NCBI GenBank assembly: GCA_029932675.1
Contig: JAOZPP010000089.1
Location: 1 to 10,478, forward strand
From: a bacterium
GTDB lineage: Bacteria > SM23-81 > DAOVCL01
Reading direction: 5' to 3'
DNA length: 10,478 nucleotides
Positions 3,827 to 10,297 of the stretch are shown piece by piece (the stretch's first letter is position 1; the number at the start of each line of letters is the position of its first letter). The notes below the pieces were generated by a model, which saw only the letters and a program-made list of their open reading frames with translations, made no database searches and was not told the DNA's origin. Made by a program: the position numbers and the translations under genes.

Positions 3827-4414
3827 TTGAAGATGGAAATCAGGGAAACCTCTCAAAAGAGGGCCAAAATACCTGATGAAGAGCTTATGCTTCGATTGGC
3901 CCAAGGGAACGACTATGCCCTGGAAGTCCTGGTCAAGAGGTATCAGCTCAAGATCATCAACTTTGTCTACCGAATGGTGGGAGACCTCGATCAAGCCGAG
4001 GATATAGCTCAGGAGGTCTTCATTAGGGTTTACCAGCACAGGACGAGGTATCGACCCCTTGCTAAGTTCTCCACCTGGCTCTACACCATTGCAGCCAATC
4101 TGGCCAAAAGCCAGTTGAGAAGGAGAAGCATCTTTAATCCCATTTCCCTTGCTCGATTGAAAGGGGAGAGGTTTTCGTCTTCTAAGAGAGGTCCGGAGAA
4201 GACCTTATTAGATAAAGAGCTTGGGCAGAAAATTCAAGAGGGGATAGAGAGACTACAGACAAATTATAGGGTTCCCTTAATCCTGCGAGATGTAGAGGGG
4301 CTCTGTTACGAAGAGATCTCCCAGATAGTAGGCTGTCCCTTGGGCACGGTGAAATCTAGGATCAACAGGGCCAGACTGAAACTACGGGATATATTGGCGG
4401 AATATCTTAGCTAA
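3827..4414 (+). CDS. ECF-family (RpoE/SigW-like) RNA polymerase sigma factor
   Basis: This alternative sigma factor of the extracytoplasmic-function class directs RNA polymerase to a stress regulon. In its 195 residues the sigma-70 region 2 spans about 17-100, with the typical YRMVGDLDQAEDIAQEVFIR helix and the FSTWLYTIAANLAKSQLRRR segment. Region 4 spans about 143-192, with the helix-turn-helix YEEISQIVGCPLGTVKSRI. Regions 1.1 and 3 are absent, as expected for ECF proteins. The TTG start at 3827 is favoured because AGGAG (3814-3818) lies eight bases upstream; an ATG two codons later (3833) is 14 bases away. It is followed, after a 271-nt gap, by a membrane anti-sigma factor and an HtrA-like protein, which fits an envelope-stress module. 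The exact ECF subgroup and regulon cannot be assigned. Confidence 0.93.
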   Translation: MKMEIRETSQKRAKIPDEELMLRLAQGNDYALEVLVKRYQLKIINFVYRMVGDLDQAEDIAQEVFIRVYQHRTRYRPLAKFSTWLYTIAANLAKSQLRRRSIFNPISLARLKGERFSSSKRGPEKTLLDKELGQKIQEGIERLQTNYRVPLILRDVEGLCYEEISQIVGCPLGTVKSRINRARLKLRDILAEYLS

Positions 4415-4685
4415 GGGCGGGCAAGTAAGCTTCGGTTTTTCCCCGCAGCTTTGGCCGGAGGCTGAAAGCCCGCCTGCAGATAGACTTCTCCCTGGTTAAT
4501 GAATTGCCTCAAGGGAAGACCAAACGCCTGAGAACCCCTAACAGCAAGCAGTAAACAGACCCCAGGATCTCTCCCCTTGGGCGATAGAATTAGAAAAGGT
4601 CTCTGAATAATGCAAGTTTAATGAGCTTATCCTCTTTATTAAAATAGGAATACAGATCCTATGAACTCAAAAAGACGGAGGGCCT
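4415..4685 (+). other. Structured intergenic gap between sigma and anti-sigma genes
   Basis: Cognate ECF sigma and anti-sigma genes usually abut or overlap; here 271 nt separate them with no credible ORF. The first 60 nt can fold into a closed arm: GGCGGGC (4416-4422) pairs with GCCCGCC (4468-4474), and inside it AGCTTC (4428-4433) pairs with GAGGCT (4458-4463). A further bulged stem, CTTC..CCT (4485-4493) with AGG-GAAG (4512-4518), follows, and GGT/ACC pairing could make a pseudoknot. Close to the anti-sigma start is a dyad, ATAGGA (4644-4649) and TCCTAT (4657-4662). It could be a 5' leader, a small RNA or a decayed gene. I do not recognise a known riboswitch class. Confidence 0.4.
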
Positions 4686-5228
4686 ATGAAATGTAAAGAG
4701 TGGGAAGAACTTTTTTCGGATTACATAGAAGGAAACCTAAACCTGGTTGTCAAAGAAGAGGTGGAAGCCCATCTTAAAGGTTGCTCCAGATGCAACCATA
4801 GAGTAGAGCAGATGAGGACCCTGATGGGCAGATTGCACGATTTGGAGATGGTTGAACCATCTCCAGGGTTTGAAGCCAAATTCTGGAGTCGCCTAAGGAG
4901 GGAATCCCTCAAGAGGAGTTACCACCAGATCCTCTCCCCAATTCCTGCACTGGCCGCCCTTTTGATCTTAGTGGCCACAGGCTACCTTCTATTCTCTTCC
5001 CCATCCCCTCGAAAAAGCCATCTCATCTCCGAAGCGGACATAGTAAATGTGCAGCCCTCTGGAGGCCAAGCCATCGGAGGAGAAACCAGGTGGGGTTACC
5101 GAACCGGAGAGAGCGGCGTGAGCCTGGAAAGGTTTCAATCTCCAGCAGATACTCTCTCTAAAGGAAGGACGAGATATGTCCTTCCCGTGATCTCTAACCG
5201 CCCAAAAGTGGAGTTTACCTCATTTTGA
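4686..5228 (+). CDS. Zinc-finger (zf-HC2/ZAS) transmembrane anti-sigma factor
   Basis: This is a likely inhibitor of the ECF sigma factor encoded just upstream. The N-terminal cytoplasmic domain carries the anti-sigma zinc-binding signature with Cys3, His29, Cys33 and Cys36 (H-x3-C-x2-C), which in this family clamps the sigma factor. One hydrophobic segment at about 85-103 anchors it in the inner membrane, leaving roughly 77 residues outside (104-180) with no recognisable sensor domain. GGAGGG (4677-4682) lies three bases before the ATG. The stop TGA is embedded in the Shine-Dalgarno of the next gene, ten bases before its ATG, so the anti-sigma factor and the HtrA-like protein are clearly cotranscribed. 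Release of sigma by regulated proteolysis is known for such families; which protease would act here is unknown. Confidence 0.9.
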   Translation: MKCKEWEELFSDYIEGNLNLVVKEEVEAHLKGCSRCNHRVEQMRTLMGRLHDLEMVEPSPGFEAKFWSRLRRESLKRSYHQILSPIPALAALLILVATGYLLFSSPSPRKSHLISEADIVNVQPSGGQAIGGETRWGYRTGESGVSLERFQSPADTLSKGRTRYVLPVISNRPKVEFTSF

Positions 5229-5238
5229 GGAGGGAAAG

Positions 5239-6444
5239 ATGAGAAGATGGGGTAGATTCATTATTCCCCTATTCCTTTTCTGGATTCAGGGGATGTCGCC
5301 CCTCCTTGCTGGTGGATCAGCTCTTAAATCTCTGGAAAGGGAAATAAAAGCAATCCTCAAGGAAGCTGCGCCTGCCCTGGTCAGTATATCAACCAAGGAA
5401 GGGCTTAGCTGCCAGCAGGATGTTGGCTCTGGGGTGATAATTAGGAAGGGAGGTTACATCCTCACCACTAAGGATGTGGCTGGTGATGGGCAAGAGGTGG
5501 AGGTAACCTTAGAAAATGGACGGCGCTATCAGGCAAAATTGGTCGGATCGGATGCCGAATTAAATCTTGCTGTCCTCAAGATCGATGCCGATGGGCTTAT
5601 ACCAGCTAAGCTGGGTGATTCTACAAAGATGAAACCAGGTTCTTGGGTTATCGTCTTAGGAAATTCGTTCGGCCTCGCCCCTGCGGTCTCCTTTGGCCTT
5701 TTCAACGGGAAGAGAAAGGACGGTCTTCTTCAGCTAAGTGCCTTTGTCTTTCCCGGAAATACGGGAGGGGCAGTTTTAAACTCAGACGGTGAGCTGATCG
5801 GGATAGTCACTGGTACGGCATCAGGGCTGGTAAAGACCTCTCTCTTCAAAGGGATTAACCACACATCCAAATTGGAGATAACCACCAGTCTCCTCCCCCC
5901 AGATCTTGATCTCCCCTATCAGGGGATGACCCTGGCTATCCCTATAAACACAGCTAAAGCAGCAGCTTCCCAGTTGATAAAAGAAGGAAAAGTGGAAAGG
6001 GGGTGGCTGGGGGTGATCATCCAAGACCTCACGCCCTCCCTGAGGGATCATTTTGGGGTAAAGAAAGGGGTCCTGGTCTCGGATGTGGTTGATGATAGCC
6101 CTGCACAAAAAGCAGGTATGAAGAGGGGGGATGTAATTGTTAGATTTCATGGTGAAAAGGTCGAGAATTCAACTCAGCTTAGGGAGATGGTTGTCTCTAC
6201 TCCCCCTGGTGAGGAGATTAGCCTTCTCCTTGTCAGGGATGGAGAGGAGAAATCAGTAAAAGTCACCATAGGAAAGAAGCCAAAATATTCCAGGATTGGC
6301 AAAGAAGAAAGGTTATGGCAAAACTTCCCATTCCCCGATCTCAGCAAGTTAAAAGAAAATCTCTTTTCGGAGAAGATTAGGGAAAGGCTGGATGAACTGG
6401 AAAAGGAAGTAGAAAAGCTCAAACGGAAATTAGGCGCCGATTAA
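5239..6444 (+). CDS. HtrA/Deg-family secreted protein with one PDZ domain, catalytic triad lost (pseudoprotease)
   Basis: The 401-residue product has a signal peptide (1-24, hydrophobic core then LLAGG), a trypsin-like HtrA fold (about 36-250) and one PDZ domain (about 255-348, starting GWLGVIIQDL). It ends in a charged, coiled-coil-like C-terminus (about 370-400). It is therefore expected in the periplasm. All three catalytic positions of the S1C family are changed. The TNxHV motif reads TTKDVA (Asp79 for His). The DLAVLK motif reads NLAVLK (Asn109 for Asp). GNSGG reads GNTGG (Thr175 for Ser). The frame is intact and the oxyanion-hole glycines remain, so this looks like a preserved but inactive protease rather than a decayed one. 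It follows the anti-sigma gene by 10 nt with a strong GAGGAGGG site. A role as sensor, chaperone or scaffold for the sigma/anti-sigma pair is inference. Confidence 0.92.
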   Translation: MRRWGRFIIPLFLFWIQGMSPLLAGGSALKSLEREIKAILKEAAPALVSISTKEGLSCQQDVGSGVIIRKGGYILTTKDVAGDGQEVEVTLENGRRYQAKLVGSDAELNLAVLKIDADGLIPAKLGDSTKMKPGSWVIVLGNSFGLAPAVSFGLFNGKRKDGLLQLSAFVFPGNTGGAVLNSDGELIGIVTGTASGLVKTSLFKGINHTSKLEITTSLLPPDLDLPYQGMTLAIPINTAKAAASQLIKEGKVERGWLGVIIQDLTPSLRDHFGVKKGVLVSDVVDDSPAQKAGMKRGDVIVRFHGEKVENSTQLREMVVSTPPGEEISLLLVRDGEEKSVKVTIGKKPKYSRIGKEERLWQNFPFPDLSKLKENLFSEKIRERLDELEKEVEKLKRKLGAD

Positions 6445-6471
6445 GCCGTTCCCTCAAGGAACGGCTTTTTT
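6443..6471 (+). terminator. Strong intrinsic terminator after the HtrA-like gene
   Basis: The stem AAGCCGTTCC/GGAACGGCTT with a CTCAA loop runs into a T tract ending at 6471. The hairpin starts inside the TAA stop codon of the HtrA-like gene. It closes the sigma/anti-sigma/HtrA unit, and the next promoter begins two bases later, so the two transcription units are sharply separated. Confidence 0.93.
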
Positions 6472-6472
6472 G

Positions 6473-6501
6473 TTGACAAACAGGGTTTAGCCAATTATAA
6501 T
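6473..6501 (+). promoter_or_regulatory. Perfect-consensus sigma-70 promoter
   Basis: TTGACA (6473-6478) and TATAAT (6496-6501) are separated by exactly 17 nt, matching the housekeeping consensus at every position. Transcription should start near 6508, giving a leader of about 85 nt before the lipoprotein gene. It drives the DUF4837 lipoprotein and the epimerase. Confidence 0.88.
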
Positions 6502-6593: not shown

Positions 6594-7604
6594 TTGACTA
6601 TTAGGGGAATCCTCATTCCGTTTTCCCTCTTCCTCCTCTCCGGAGGATGTTCACATCTACCTTCAGGAATTGGCTCAGACCATGAGATTAGGGTCTTGGC
6701 CAACCCCGCAGAGTGGGAGGTGCTCTACCCCTTACTGCAGGCGGTCTTCGAGAAGAGGGTTTACACTCCCGAGGAGGAAAAGGTCTTTACCGTAAGGAGA
6801 ATTGACCAAACAAAGTTCGACTTATATAAGAAATCAAGAAACCTTCTGCTCATCTCCCCCTTGAGTTCATCAGGACCAGCAGCCCAAAGGATCAGATCGA
6901 TCTTAAGCCCTCAAGCCCGCCGCATGGTTGAGGAAGGTAGGGCTTTCCTCTTCGCCAAGAAAAATGTTTGGGCCAATGATCAGGAACTTATGGTGCTTAC
7001 TGCTCCCACCCTCCCCGCTCTTAGAAAGAGGATCTCTGAGGGAATGGAGGATATCTTCTCGGTTATGGAGAGGGCCTTAAATGAGAAGACCAAAGTTTGG
7101 CTTTTCCAGAAAGGGGAACAGAGGAAGCTGGAGAAAGAGGTCTTCAGGAAATGGGGCTGGAGTTTACGCATCCCCTGGGGATTCTCCCTCAGGGAGGAGG
7201 CCCCTGGTTTTGTCTGGCTGCAAAAGAAAGCACCTGACAGATGGATATTCATCTGGTGGGAAACGAGCAAGGACAGCCTCCTTACCCCCCAATGGGCTGT
7301 TGGAAAGAGGAACGAGTTGGGAAGGGCCTATTATGGAGGTGATGAGGTGGTTCCAAAGTATCTGGGATGGCGTCGAGTCAATCTTAATGGCCTTCAGGGA
7401 TGGGAGGTCTGGGGAACTTGGCGGAACCAGAAGCTGGTAGCAGGAGGGCCATTCAAGCTCTACTGTTTCTGGGACAGGGAAACCAAGAGAAGATACATAT
7501 TGGATGGGGCTCTATTTGCTCCCGGAATAAAGAAGGAGCCTTACCTTAGACAACTGGATGTAATTATGAAGACTTTCACTACCAAACCAAAATGCGTATC
7601 CTAG
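6594..7604 (+). CDS. DUF4837-family lipoprotein of unknown function
   Basis: The 336-residue product begins with a lipoprotein signal (basic start, hydrophobic stretch, then LLSGGC with Cys19 as the likely lipidated residue), so it should be anchored to a membrane facing the periplasm or outside. The rest resembles DUF4837, a family best known from Bacteroidetes: an early W...L...F segment, the KNVWANDQELMVLTAP block, FVWLQKKAPDRWIFIWW, a LGWRRVNLNGLQGWEVWG block and a C-terminal YLRQLDVIMKTF. No enzymatic motif is visible and the function is unknown. The start is TTG, fixed by GAGGAG (6582-6587) six bases upstream. The final 13 bases overlap the epimerase start in another frame, indicating coupled translation. 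The assignment comes from remembered family features and has not been checked by a profile search. Confidence 0.8.
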   Translation: MTIRGILIPFSLFLLSGGCSHLPSGIGSDHEIRVLANPAEWEVLYPLLQAVFEKRVYTPEEEKVFTVRRIDQTKFDLYKKSRNLLLISPLSSSGPAAQRIRSILSPQARRMVEEGRAFLFAKKNVWANDQELMVLTAPTLPALRKRISEGMEDIFSVMERALNEKTKVWLFQKGEQRKLEKEVFRKWGWSLRIPWGFSLREEAPGFVWLQKKAPDRWIFIWWETSKDSLLTPQWAVGKRNELGRAYYGGDEVVPKYLGWRRVNLNGLQGWEVWGTWRNQKLVAGGPFKLYCFWDRETKRRYILDGALFAPGIKKEPYLRQLDVIMKTFTTKPKCVS

Positions 7605-9584: not shown

Positions 9585-9932
9585 TCATACTCCTCCCCCT
9601 TTTTCAATAATCCCGCTTAATCTATGTTTCAAAGCGGGAATATCCCTTTTAACCGTATCCCAGACGGCATCTAAGTCTACACCGAAATAATCGTGTATCA
9701 ATTTGTCCCTCATCCCCGCTATATCTTGCCATGGTATTTCGGAATAGTTTTCTCTGATTTCTTTAGATAATCTCTTTGTAGCTTCACCTATTATCTCAAT
9801 CTGCCTTATCACCCCATCTTGTATAAGATGATCCTCCATGAAGCCTTCATAAGTTATACCTCGGGTATACTCCTTTATTCTGGAGATGGCATCTAAGATA
9901 TGCCGCAAATATACAGAGTTGTCTTTTCTCAC
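9585..9932 (-). CDS. hepT: HEPN-domain ribonuclease toxin of the MntA-HepT system
   Basis: The 115-residue all-helical protein belongs to the HepT-like HEPN family (formerly DUF86). The family RNase motif R-x4-H-x-Y is present as Arg75-DKLI-His80-Asp-Tyr82. The flanking segments [16 protein letters not shown] and [15 protein letters not shown] are typical. Proteins of this family cleave RNA and are silenced when the partner nucleotidyltransferase AMPylates the motif tyrosine. The start is GTG (9932-9930), overlapping the mntA stop in a GTGA junction, with GGAGG upstream inside mntA, so the two are translationally coupled. The pair is richer in A/T than its neighbours and lies between two copies of a dispersed repeat, consistent with acquisition by transfer. 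Confidence 0.92.
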
Positions 9933-10213
9933 CCGTAAATTACCTCCATTTCCTTCCTTAGCGTATTAATCAAATATGGACTTATAAATTTTTCCGTTAA
10001 CAAATCCGCTTTTATACCTAAGACTTCGGACAACTCCCTTTCTATTCTCACAAGTTCAAGAAGACTTTTTCTATCTGAAAATTCCACGATGACGTCTATA
10101 TCGCTTCCCGGCTTTTCTTCCCCTCTTACATAAGAGCCAAAGACAGCTATCTTTCTTGCCCCTTCATTTTTAAGCACTTGAACAACTTTTTCAAAAATTT
10201 CTTCTCTATTCAT
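9929..10213 (-). CDS. mntA: MNT-domain nucleotidyltransferase antitoxin of the MntA-HepT system
   Basis: This minimal nucleotidyltransferase of about 94 residues has the complete signature G-S-x10-D-x-D (Gly26-Ser27 ... Asp38, Asp40, in [15 protein letters not shown]) and a third acidic residue at Asp70 (KADLL). Family members attach AMP to the tyrosine of HepT and so neutralise it. I place the start at the ATG at 10213-10211, preceded closely by GAGGGGGAG and giving the usual family N-terminus ([10 protein letters not shown]). The open frame extends 15 codons further to a GTG at 10258, which is less likely. It precedes hepT and overlaps it by 4 nt. All catalytic residues are intact, so the module should be functional. 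Confidence 0.91.
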
Positions 10214-10297
10214 AACTCTCCCCCTCTCAAAGTCTGGGTTCAGAATTTCGGCTATCACTATTATGTCGCCCCTATATAGACTGGTAGCCTATACAAA

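Follow-up and report, generated by a model that had tools for sequence, protein, structure and literature searches.

An HtrA-fold pseudoprotease and a predicted PDZ ligand at the C-terminus of its neighbouring anti-sigma factor

A protein of 401 residues, encoded in a stretch of bacterial DNA of 10,478 nucleotides (the window, meaning this whole stretch), is on comparative sequence evidence best described as a pseudoprotease of HtrA fold with an anti-sigma factor as its dedicated partner; that anti-sigma factor itself carries a co-occurring predicted PDZ ligand at its C-terminus, and the combination was traced in at least seven phyla. Most of what is known about envelope stress sensing comes from Escherichia coli and Pseudomonas, in which a live HtrA cuts the anti-sigma factor. 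The module described here suggests that in several little-studied phyla the anti-sigma factor has a dedicated holder in the form of a dead HtrA, and it would show that a protease fold can be kept purely for binding over very long periods. No description of such a pseudo-HtrA/anti-sigma module was found in the open-licence papers searched.

The pseudo-HtrA gene and its neighbours

The gene follows those of an ECF sigma factor and a membrane-anchored anti-sigma factor, and precedes a DUF4837 gene.

3827..4414, + strand: ECF sigma factor, 195 aa, TTG start (Pfam Sigma70_r2 and Sigma70_r4_2)
4686..5228, + strand: anti-sigma factor, 180 aa, with zf-HC2 (40.8 bits) on the cytoplasmic side, one transmembrane segment and an extracytoplasmic tail of about 76 residues
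5239..6444, + strand: HtrA-family pseudoprotease, 401 aa (open reading frame, Pfam, NCBIfam, alignments, AlphaFold2 model, PDB fold matches)
6443..6467, + strand: intrinsic terminator downstream of the pseudo-HtrA gene (10-bp stem, T run)
6473..6501, + strand: sigma-70-like promoter upstream of the DUF4837 gene (TTGACA-17-TATAAT, perfect 12/12)
6594..7604, + strand: DUF4837 putative lipoprotein (PF16125, 133 bits; lipobox LSGGC)

The closest NCBIfam models for the sigma factor are of the RpoE/SigW type, and the transmembrane segment of the anti-sigma factor corresponds to a hydropathy peak of 2.17 at residues 86-104. The original prediction placed the HtrA gene inside an ECF sigma/anti-sigma operon. 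The neighbours are as it described, with only 10 bp between the anti-sigma and HtrA genes, but cotranscription with the sigma gene is called into question by a gap of 271 bp (4415-4685), in which no structured RNA was matched in Rfam; at other loci the sigma and anti-sigma genes overlap or sit close together. Inclusion of DUF4837 in the pseudo-HtrA transcript is doubtful in the window: since the terminator and the perfect promoter lie between the two genes, DUF4837 probably forms a separate transcript here, though it is a conserved neighbour. Elsewhere in the window, four tRNA genes stand in tandem at its start (132-731, - strand), and a HepT-like/nucleotidyltransferase gene pair (9585-10258, - strand) has a typical toxin-antitoxin layout.

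Pfam, structural modelling and fold comparison agree on an HtrA/Do fold, namely an S1C domain followed by a PDZ domain. Pfam assigns Trypsin_2 (93 bits) to residues 63-189 and PDZ_2 (56 bits) to residues 257-344, and finds no MucB/RseB domain in the protein; the closest NCBIfam model is that of Do-family DegP/HtrA, at 253 bits, below its cut-off of 416 bits. Modelled by AlphaFold2 from an input of 41 HtrAs of viral contigs (a single-sequence run reached only pLDDT 36), the protein has a mean pLDDT of 83.5, with chymotrypsin-like and PDZ domains, a C-terminal helix, and an N-terminal hydrophobic helix (residues 2-18) compatible with a signal peptide or a membrane anchor. In Foldseek the model matches PDB entry 8kic best (E 1.9e-30), an HtrA-type serine protease from a bacterium; DegQ, DegP, MucD and DegS come next. 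The features of interest within the gene are the following.

5473..5475, + strand: D79 at the catalytic His position, codon GAT (alignments with canonical HtrAs; same codon in the same-genus relative)
5563..5565, + strand: N109 at the catalytic Asp position, codon AAT (alignments with canonical HtrAs; same codon in the same-genus relative)
5761..5763, + strand: T175 at the catalytic Ser position, codon ACG (alignments; AGC, Ser, in the same-genus relative)
5923..6276, + strand: PDZ domain region, residues 229-346 (Pfam PDZ_2/PDZ)
5998-6015, + strand: RGWLGV carboxylate-binding loop motif of the PDZ domain, residues 254-259
6370..6432, + strand: C-terminal helix, residues 378-398, a probable short coiled coil (predicted helix; heptad-like tails in the alignment)

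By alignment, the protein lacks the His-Asp-Ser triad of an active peptidase, and the residues by which a DegS/AlgW-type enzyme cleaves an anti-sigma factor appear to be absent. The earlier statement that the triad is replaced while fold, PDZ domain and reading frame stay intact is confirmed by the alignments, Pfam, the AlphaFold2 model and the PDB matches. Binding of a terminal carboxylate is the role of the HtrA PDZ loop; its G255 and G258 are invariant or near-invariant in an alignment of 18 pseudo-HtrAs, and the window protein would in this respect resemble DegS and AlgW in having a PDZ domain fit for a hydrophobic C-terminus.

The one genome of the same genus that was compared (G001) encodes an orthologue that is 69% identical, with D/N/S at the triad positions, the same shortened loop ahead of the Ser motif and the same gene order (anti-sigma, HtrA, DUF4837, epimerase). 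Loss of Ser is not fixed within the genus, since this relative keeps Ser at position 175, while the His and Asp losses are common to both proteins. Replacement of all three triad residues therefore holds for the window sequence but not for its relative, and the expectation that D79, N109 and T175 would be fixed together fails, the more so as only His is always lost in the wider family. Close relatives with an intact H/D/S triad at this locus, which would have indicated recent decay, were looked for and none was found; searches of the other two genomes of the window phylum turned up no orthologue, and the trypsin-like proteins that they did yield were either canonical or weak matches. A Lys-based alternative active site was considered and rejected, as K78, beside D79, is Gly in the relative. 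The pseudo-HtrA gene is under purifying selection: comparison of the two genomes gives pN/pS values of 0.22 for the protease domain and 0.19 for the PDZ domain, against 0.99 for the linker (residues 196-228) and 0.12-0.16 for two canonical HtrAs of the same genomes, all being rough values with dS near saturation. The reading frame is neither a sequencing artefact nor a pseudogene.

Anti-sigma-linked pseudo-HtrAs and anti-sigma tails across phyla

Because a scan of genome contigs with the window protein gave only a distant Sporosarcina HtrA, relatives were collected by whole-genome searches, and the set was extended by searches with anti-sigma and pseudo-HtrA alignments. DUF4837 was found in 62 of 386 genomes, and at the loci around its genes other lineages show the same arrangement (sigma, anti-sigma, HtrA, DUF4837), with HtrAs that also lack the triad. 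ECF sigma/anti-sigma pairs repeatedly have a DUF4837 gene beside them, whether or not a pseudo-HtrA is present, far beyond Bacteroides; no mention of the family was found in the open-licence papers searched, and the module gives it a first functional context.

The final set comprises 71 HtrAs encoded immediately downstream of a zf-HC2 anti-sigma gene, in 18 families and at least seven phyla. Complete listings of phylum members tell six phyla apart (those of the window, G061, G121, G319/G042, G197/G328 and G275/G138), and the remaining families, absent from these listings, add at least one further phylum. The distribution is uneven: the module is carried by 8/8 genomes of the G275 phylum and by only a few families in the G197 phylum. 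The catalytic His is kept in none of the 71 proteins (S in 31, F in 21, G in 6, A in 4, D in 3, T in 3, N in 2 and P in 1), while 55 of them retain Ser and 41 retain Asp. Canonical H/D/S HtrAs were recovered in the same searches, none of them immediately downstream of an anti-sigma gene. A tree of 36 rows splits pseudo from canonical HtrAs on a single branch (support 99/99), and the division recurs, with support 99, in a quickly built tree of 70 rows, of which 27 are pseudo and 43 canonical. In both trees the window protein clusters with the other anti-sigma-linked pseudo-HtrAs, apart from canonical HtrAs, and it shares all the traits of the group: adjacency to a gene for a transmembrane anti-sigma factor, a missing His and a partner ending in TSF. 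Pseudo-HtrAs may share one origin, although the long branches among them keep this short of proof. Many members of the family also possess the C-terminal helix, seen as heptad-like tails in the alignment. Two side observations concern the diversity of HtrA relatives. One locus (L157:5404-7542, - strand) encodes a 712-aa pseudo-HtrA (D/N/V) with several PDZ domains, downstream of its own sigma/anti-sigma pair, the anti-sigma factor ending in ...NIVY; and 80 IMG/VR contigs (L307-L386) encode HtrA relatives, most of those scanned having intact-protease H and Ser motifs.

The tails of the partner anti-sigma factors were compared with those of 33 controls, and two features of the window anti-sigma factor stand out.

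5175..5192, + strand: YVLPVI hydrophobic motif, anti-sigma residues 164-169 (a motif type found about 10-40 residues ahead of the C-terminus)
5217..5225, + strand: C-terminal T-S-F-COOH, predicted PDZ ligand (also TSF in the same-genus relative; comparison with 71 partners and 33 controls)

All 71 partner anti-sigma factors have a transmembrane segment followed by at least 65 residues, and their last residue is F in 39, L in 28, Y in 2, W in 1 and P in 1, that is F, L, Y or W in 70/71. In the controls, anti-sigma factors with a transmembrane segment and a tail but no adjacent HtrA, drawn by similarity search and not randomly, the last residue is F, Y or W in 0/33 and L in 3/33. Since the 71 proteins are related, they were collapsed into 12 family/phylum groups, which end in F (8), Y (2), L/W (1) and P (1); for F the Fisher test gives p 2.3e-6, most of the 71 loci coming from three phyla, so that the effective sample is about 12. 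As background, a terminal F occurs in about 5% of long open reading frames at these loci. Five cassettes from a single phylum lack the HtrA gene though the sigma, anti-sigma and DUF4837 genes are present; the last residues of their anti-sigma factors are R, E, R, G and R. At these loci (L119, L134, L135, L303 and L304, in G102 and relatives) a VDT motif also lies near the charged or Gly end.

Conservation is concentrated at the very end of the tail: in the two best-sampled clades the mean share of the top residue over the last four positions is 0.88 and 0.91, against 0.52 and 0.70 earlier in the tail. Terminal Leu is written with five codons and terminal Phe with two, and all three stop codons are used. 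These varied codons and stops indicate conservation at the level of the protein and not of a DNA signal, and a DNA-level cause of the terminal Phe, such as overlap with a ribosome-binding site, was rejected on the same grounds. In one phylum the tail ends in GGL instead of Phe, and in the G061 lineage one anti-sigma factor (L194:5073-5780, - strand) ends in ...TVTFSP, like the usual VTF end with two extra residues. Motifs of the YVLPVI type occur in 56/71 partners against 2/33 controls, the pattern having been picked after the data were seen; this stretch is a possible strand that could dock in the dead active-site groove.

A proposed clamp and its rivals

The simplest account of these linked features is that the PDZ domain of the pseudo-HtrA binds the anti-sigma C-terminus. 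PDZ-bearing HtrAs and Tsp/Prc-type proteases have hydrophobic C-termini as ligands. We consider it probable that the window protein is a catalytically dead envelope HtrA that uses its PDZ domain to bind the upstream-encoded anti-sigma factor by its hydrophobic C-terminus, and that would act as a clamp, most likely a shield. The PDZ domain would grip the terminal residues, and the tail's earlier hydrophobic stretch may rest in the dead protease domain. The result would be a peptide-gated clamp on the extracytoplasmic domain, or 'hold without bite'; it is seen as a clamp, RseB-like in role, because no cutting is expected. Its most likely effect would be to protect the anti-sigma factor from site-1 cleavage by a different protease, for instance either of the two intact HtrAs of the genome, until a rival ligand takes over the PDZ groove and the clamp lets go; the C-terminus of an unfolded outer-membrane protein is one candidate. 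The anti-sigma factor could then be cut and the ECF sigma factor freed. Competing outer-membrane-protein tails are attractive as the release signal because those ligands also end in Phe. Taken as a whole, an undescribed and widespread stress sensor, in which the anti-sigma factor bears its own PDZ ligand, a dead HtrA clamps it and unfolded outer-membrane-protein tails compete to trigger the sigma factor, is a tentative reading that we would not yet call the expected one; if true, stress would be sensed via competition at a dead protease and not via activation of a live one.

This reading bears on what had been predicted of the protein. The 71-member family supports the idea of a conserved pseudoprotease linked with an anti-sigma factor, and a binding or scaffolding role without cleavage fits the comparisons. 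The proposal that the PDZ domain reads misfolded envelope proteins has to be refined: the evidence points to the anti-sigma factor's own C-terminus, so that misfolded proteins, if involved, would more likely be competitors for that site.

The main rival is an adaptor role, in which the dead HtrA, by binding the anti-sigma tail or by joining an active HtrA in mixed trimers, would deliver the tail to the active protease and promote release of the sigma factor. It ranks so because MamO is a precedent for a dead HtrA promoting the work of a partner protease, being required for MamE-dependent processing while its own active site is dispensable (PMC4794232), and the two intact HtrAs of the window genome offer candidate active partners; on the other hand, no intact HtrA gene is seen directly in the cassette at these loci, and the sequence evidence is silent on the direction of regulation. 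Protective and recruiting roles fit the data about equally well, yet we regard the adaptor as rather unlikely overall. Separate roles for the two partners, with the pseudo-HtrA a sigma-induced general envelope chaperone and the tail read by another PDZ protease (a DegS-like HtrA or a Tsp/Prc-type enzyme), are less probable again. The same genomes do encode canonical PDZ-bearing HtrAs, and a DegS-like intact HtrA could also bind the anti-sigma tail, but the hydrophobic tail tracks the adjacent pseudo-HtrA, and aromatic ends are wanting in all 33 anti-sigma factors without one, including those of otherwise similar HtrA-less cassettes.

Readings that turn on catalysis fare worse. Hydrolysis by the retained Ser, or by the Thr of the window protein, with a different base could draw on the Ser of 55/71 homologues, but the residues found at the His position (S, F, G, A, D, T, N or P) supply no shared replacement base, and the window protein combines Thr at the nucleophile position and Asn for Asp with a K78 that is Gly in its relative; such activity is very improbable. 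Recent decay of a former protease gene heading for loss is extremely improbable, although a rough pN/pS of 0.27, somewhat higher than in canonical HtrAs, speaks for it. It was rejected in view of the purifying selection, the open frames of the homologues, and the breadth and conservation of the dead state, the His loss being common to at least seven phyla on one deep branch. As for the preferred clamp, its predicted dependence on the last anti-sigma residue makes the module testable by a single-residue change.

Comparison with known systems

The closest likeness is to the DegS-RseA and AlgW-MucA systems, in which an HtrA with one PDZ domain acts on the membrane-anchored anti-sigma factor of an ECF sigma factor. 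The PDZ domains of DegS and AlgW bind the C-termini of outer-membrane proteins or of MucE (PMC8103513, PMC8545111). These ligands are hydrophobic C-termini, YxF in outer-membrane proteins and WVF in MucE. DegS and AlgW differ from the window protein in being active proteases whose ligand comes from another protein. The window protein has a dead triad, and its candidate ligand is supplied by the anti-sigma factor's own last residues.

In its proposed role the window protein resembles RseB/MucB, a non-catalytic periplasmic protein encoded downstream of the anti-sigma gene. RseB binds the periplasmic domain of RseA and limits its cleavage. RseB/MucB is proposed to shield the anti-sigma factor (PMC8103513, PMC8545111) against site-1 cleavage for as long as no signal takes it away, much as the pseudo-HtrA would do for its partner. 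The folds are unrelated, however, and the signal is a lipid for RseB/MucB, as against a proposed PDZ peptide here.

MamO and other magnetosome pseudoproteases share the HtrA family, a degenerate active site and non-catalytic roles, which include promoting proteolysis by another HtrA; MamO itself is non-catalytic and furthers the activity of a different protease (PMC4794232). It differs in its magnetosome clusters, in binding metal and in an active site with Thr for Ser but with H116 and D149 retained. The window protein scores 52.1 bits with the MamO family model, against a cut-off of 800, and the window holds no magnetosome genes.

An HtrA gene within a sigma/anti-sigma operon is also known from MucD in algU-mucABCD and from the mycobacterial HtrA beside sigE-rseA. 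These HtrAs are taken as active proteases with intact triads, unlike the window protein, and we know of no anti-sigma C-terminal PDZ ligand in either system. Finally, there is the hold-and-bite model of DegP: the PDZ domain keeps hold of the C-terminus of a substrate, and a segment upstream of it goes to the protease domain. The window protein is proposed to differ in holding without biting, and in doing so for one dedicated client.
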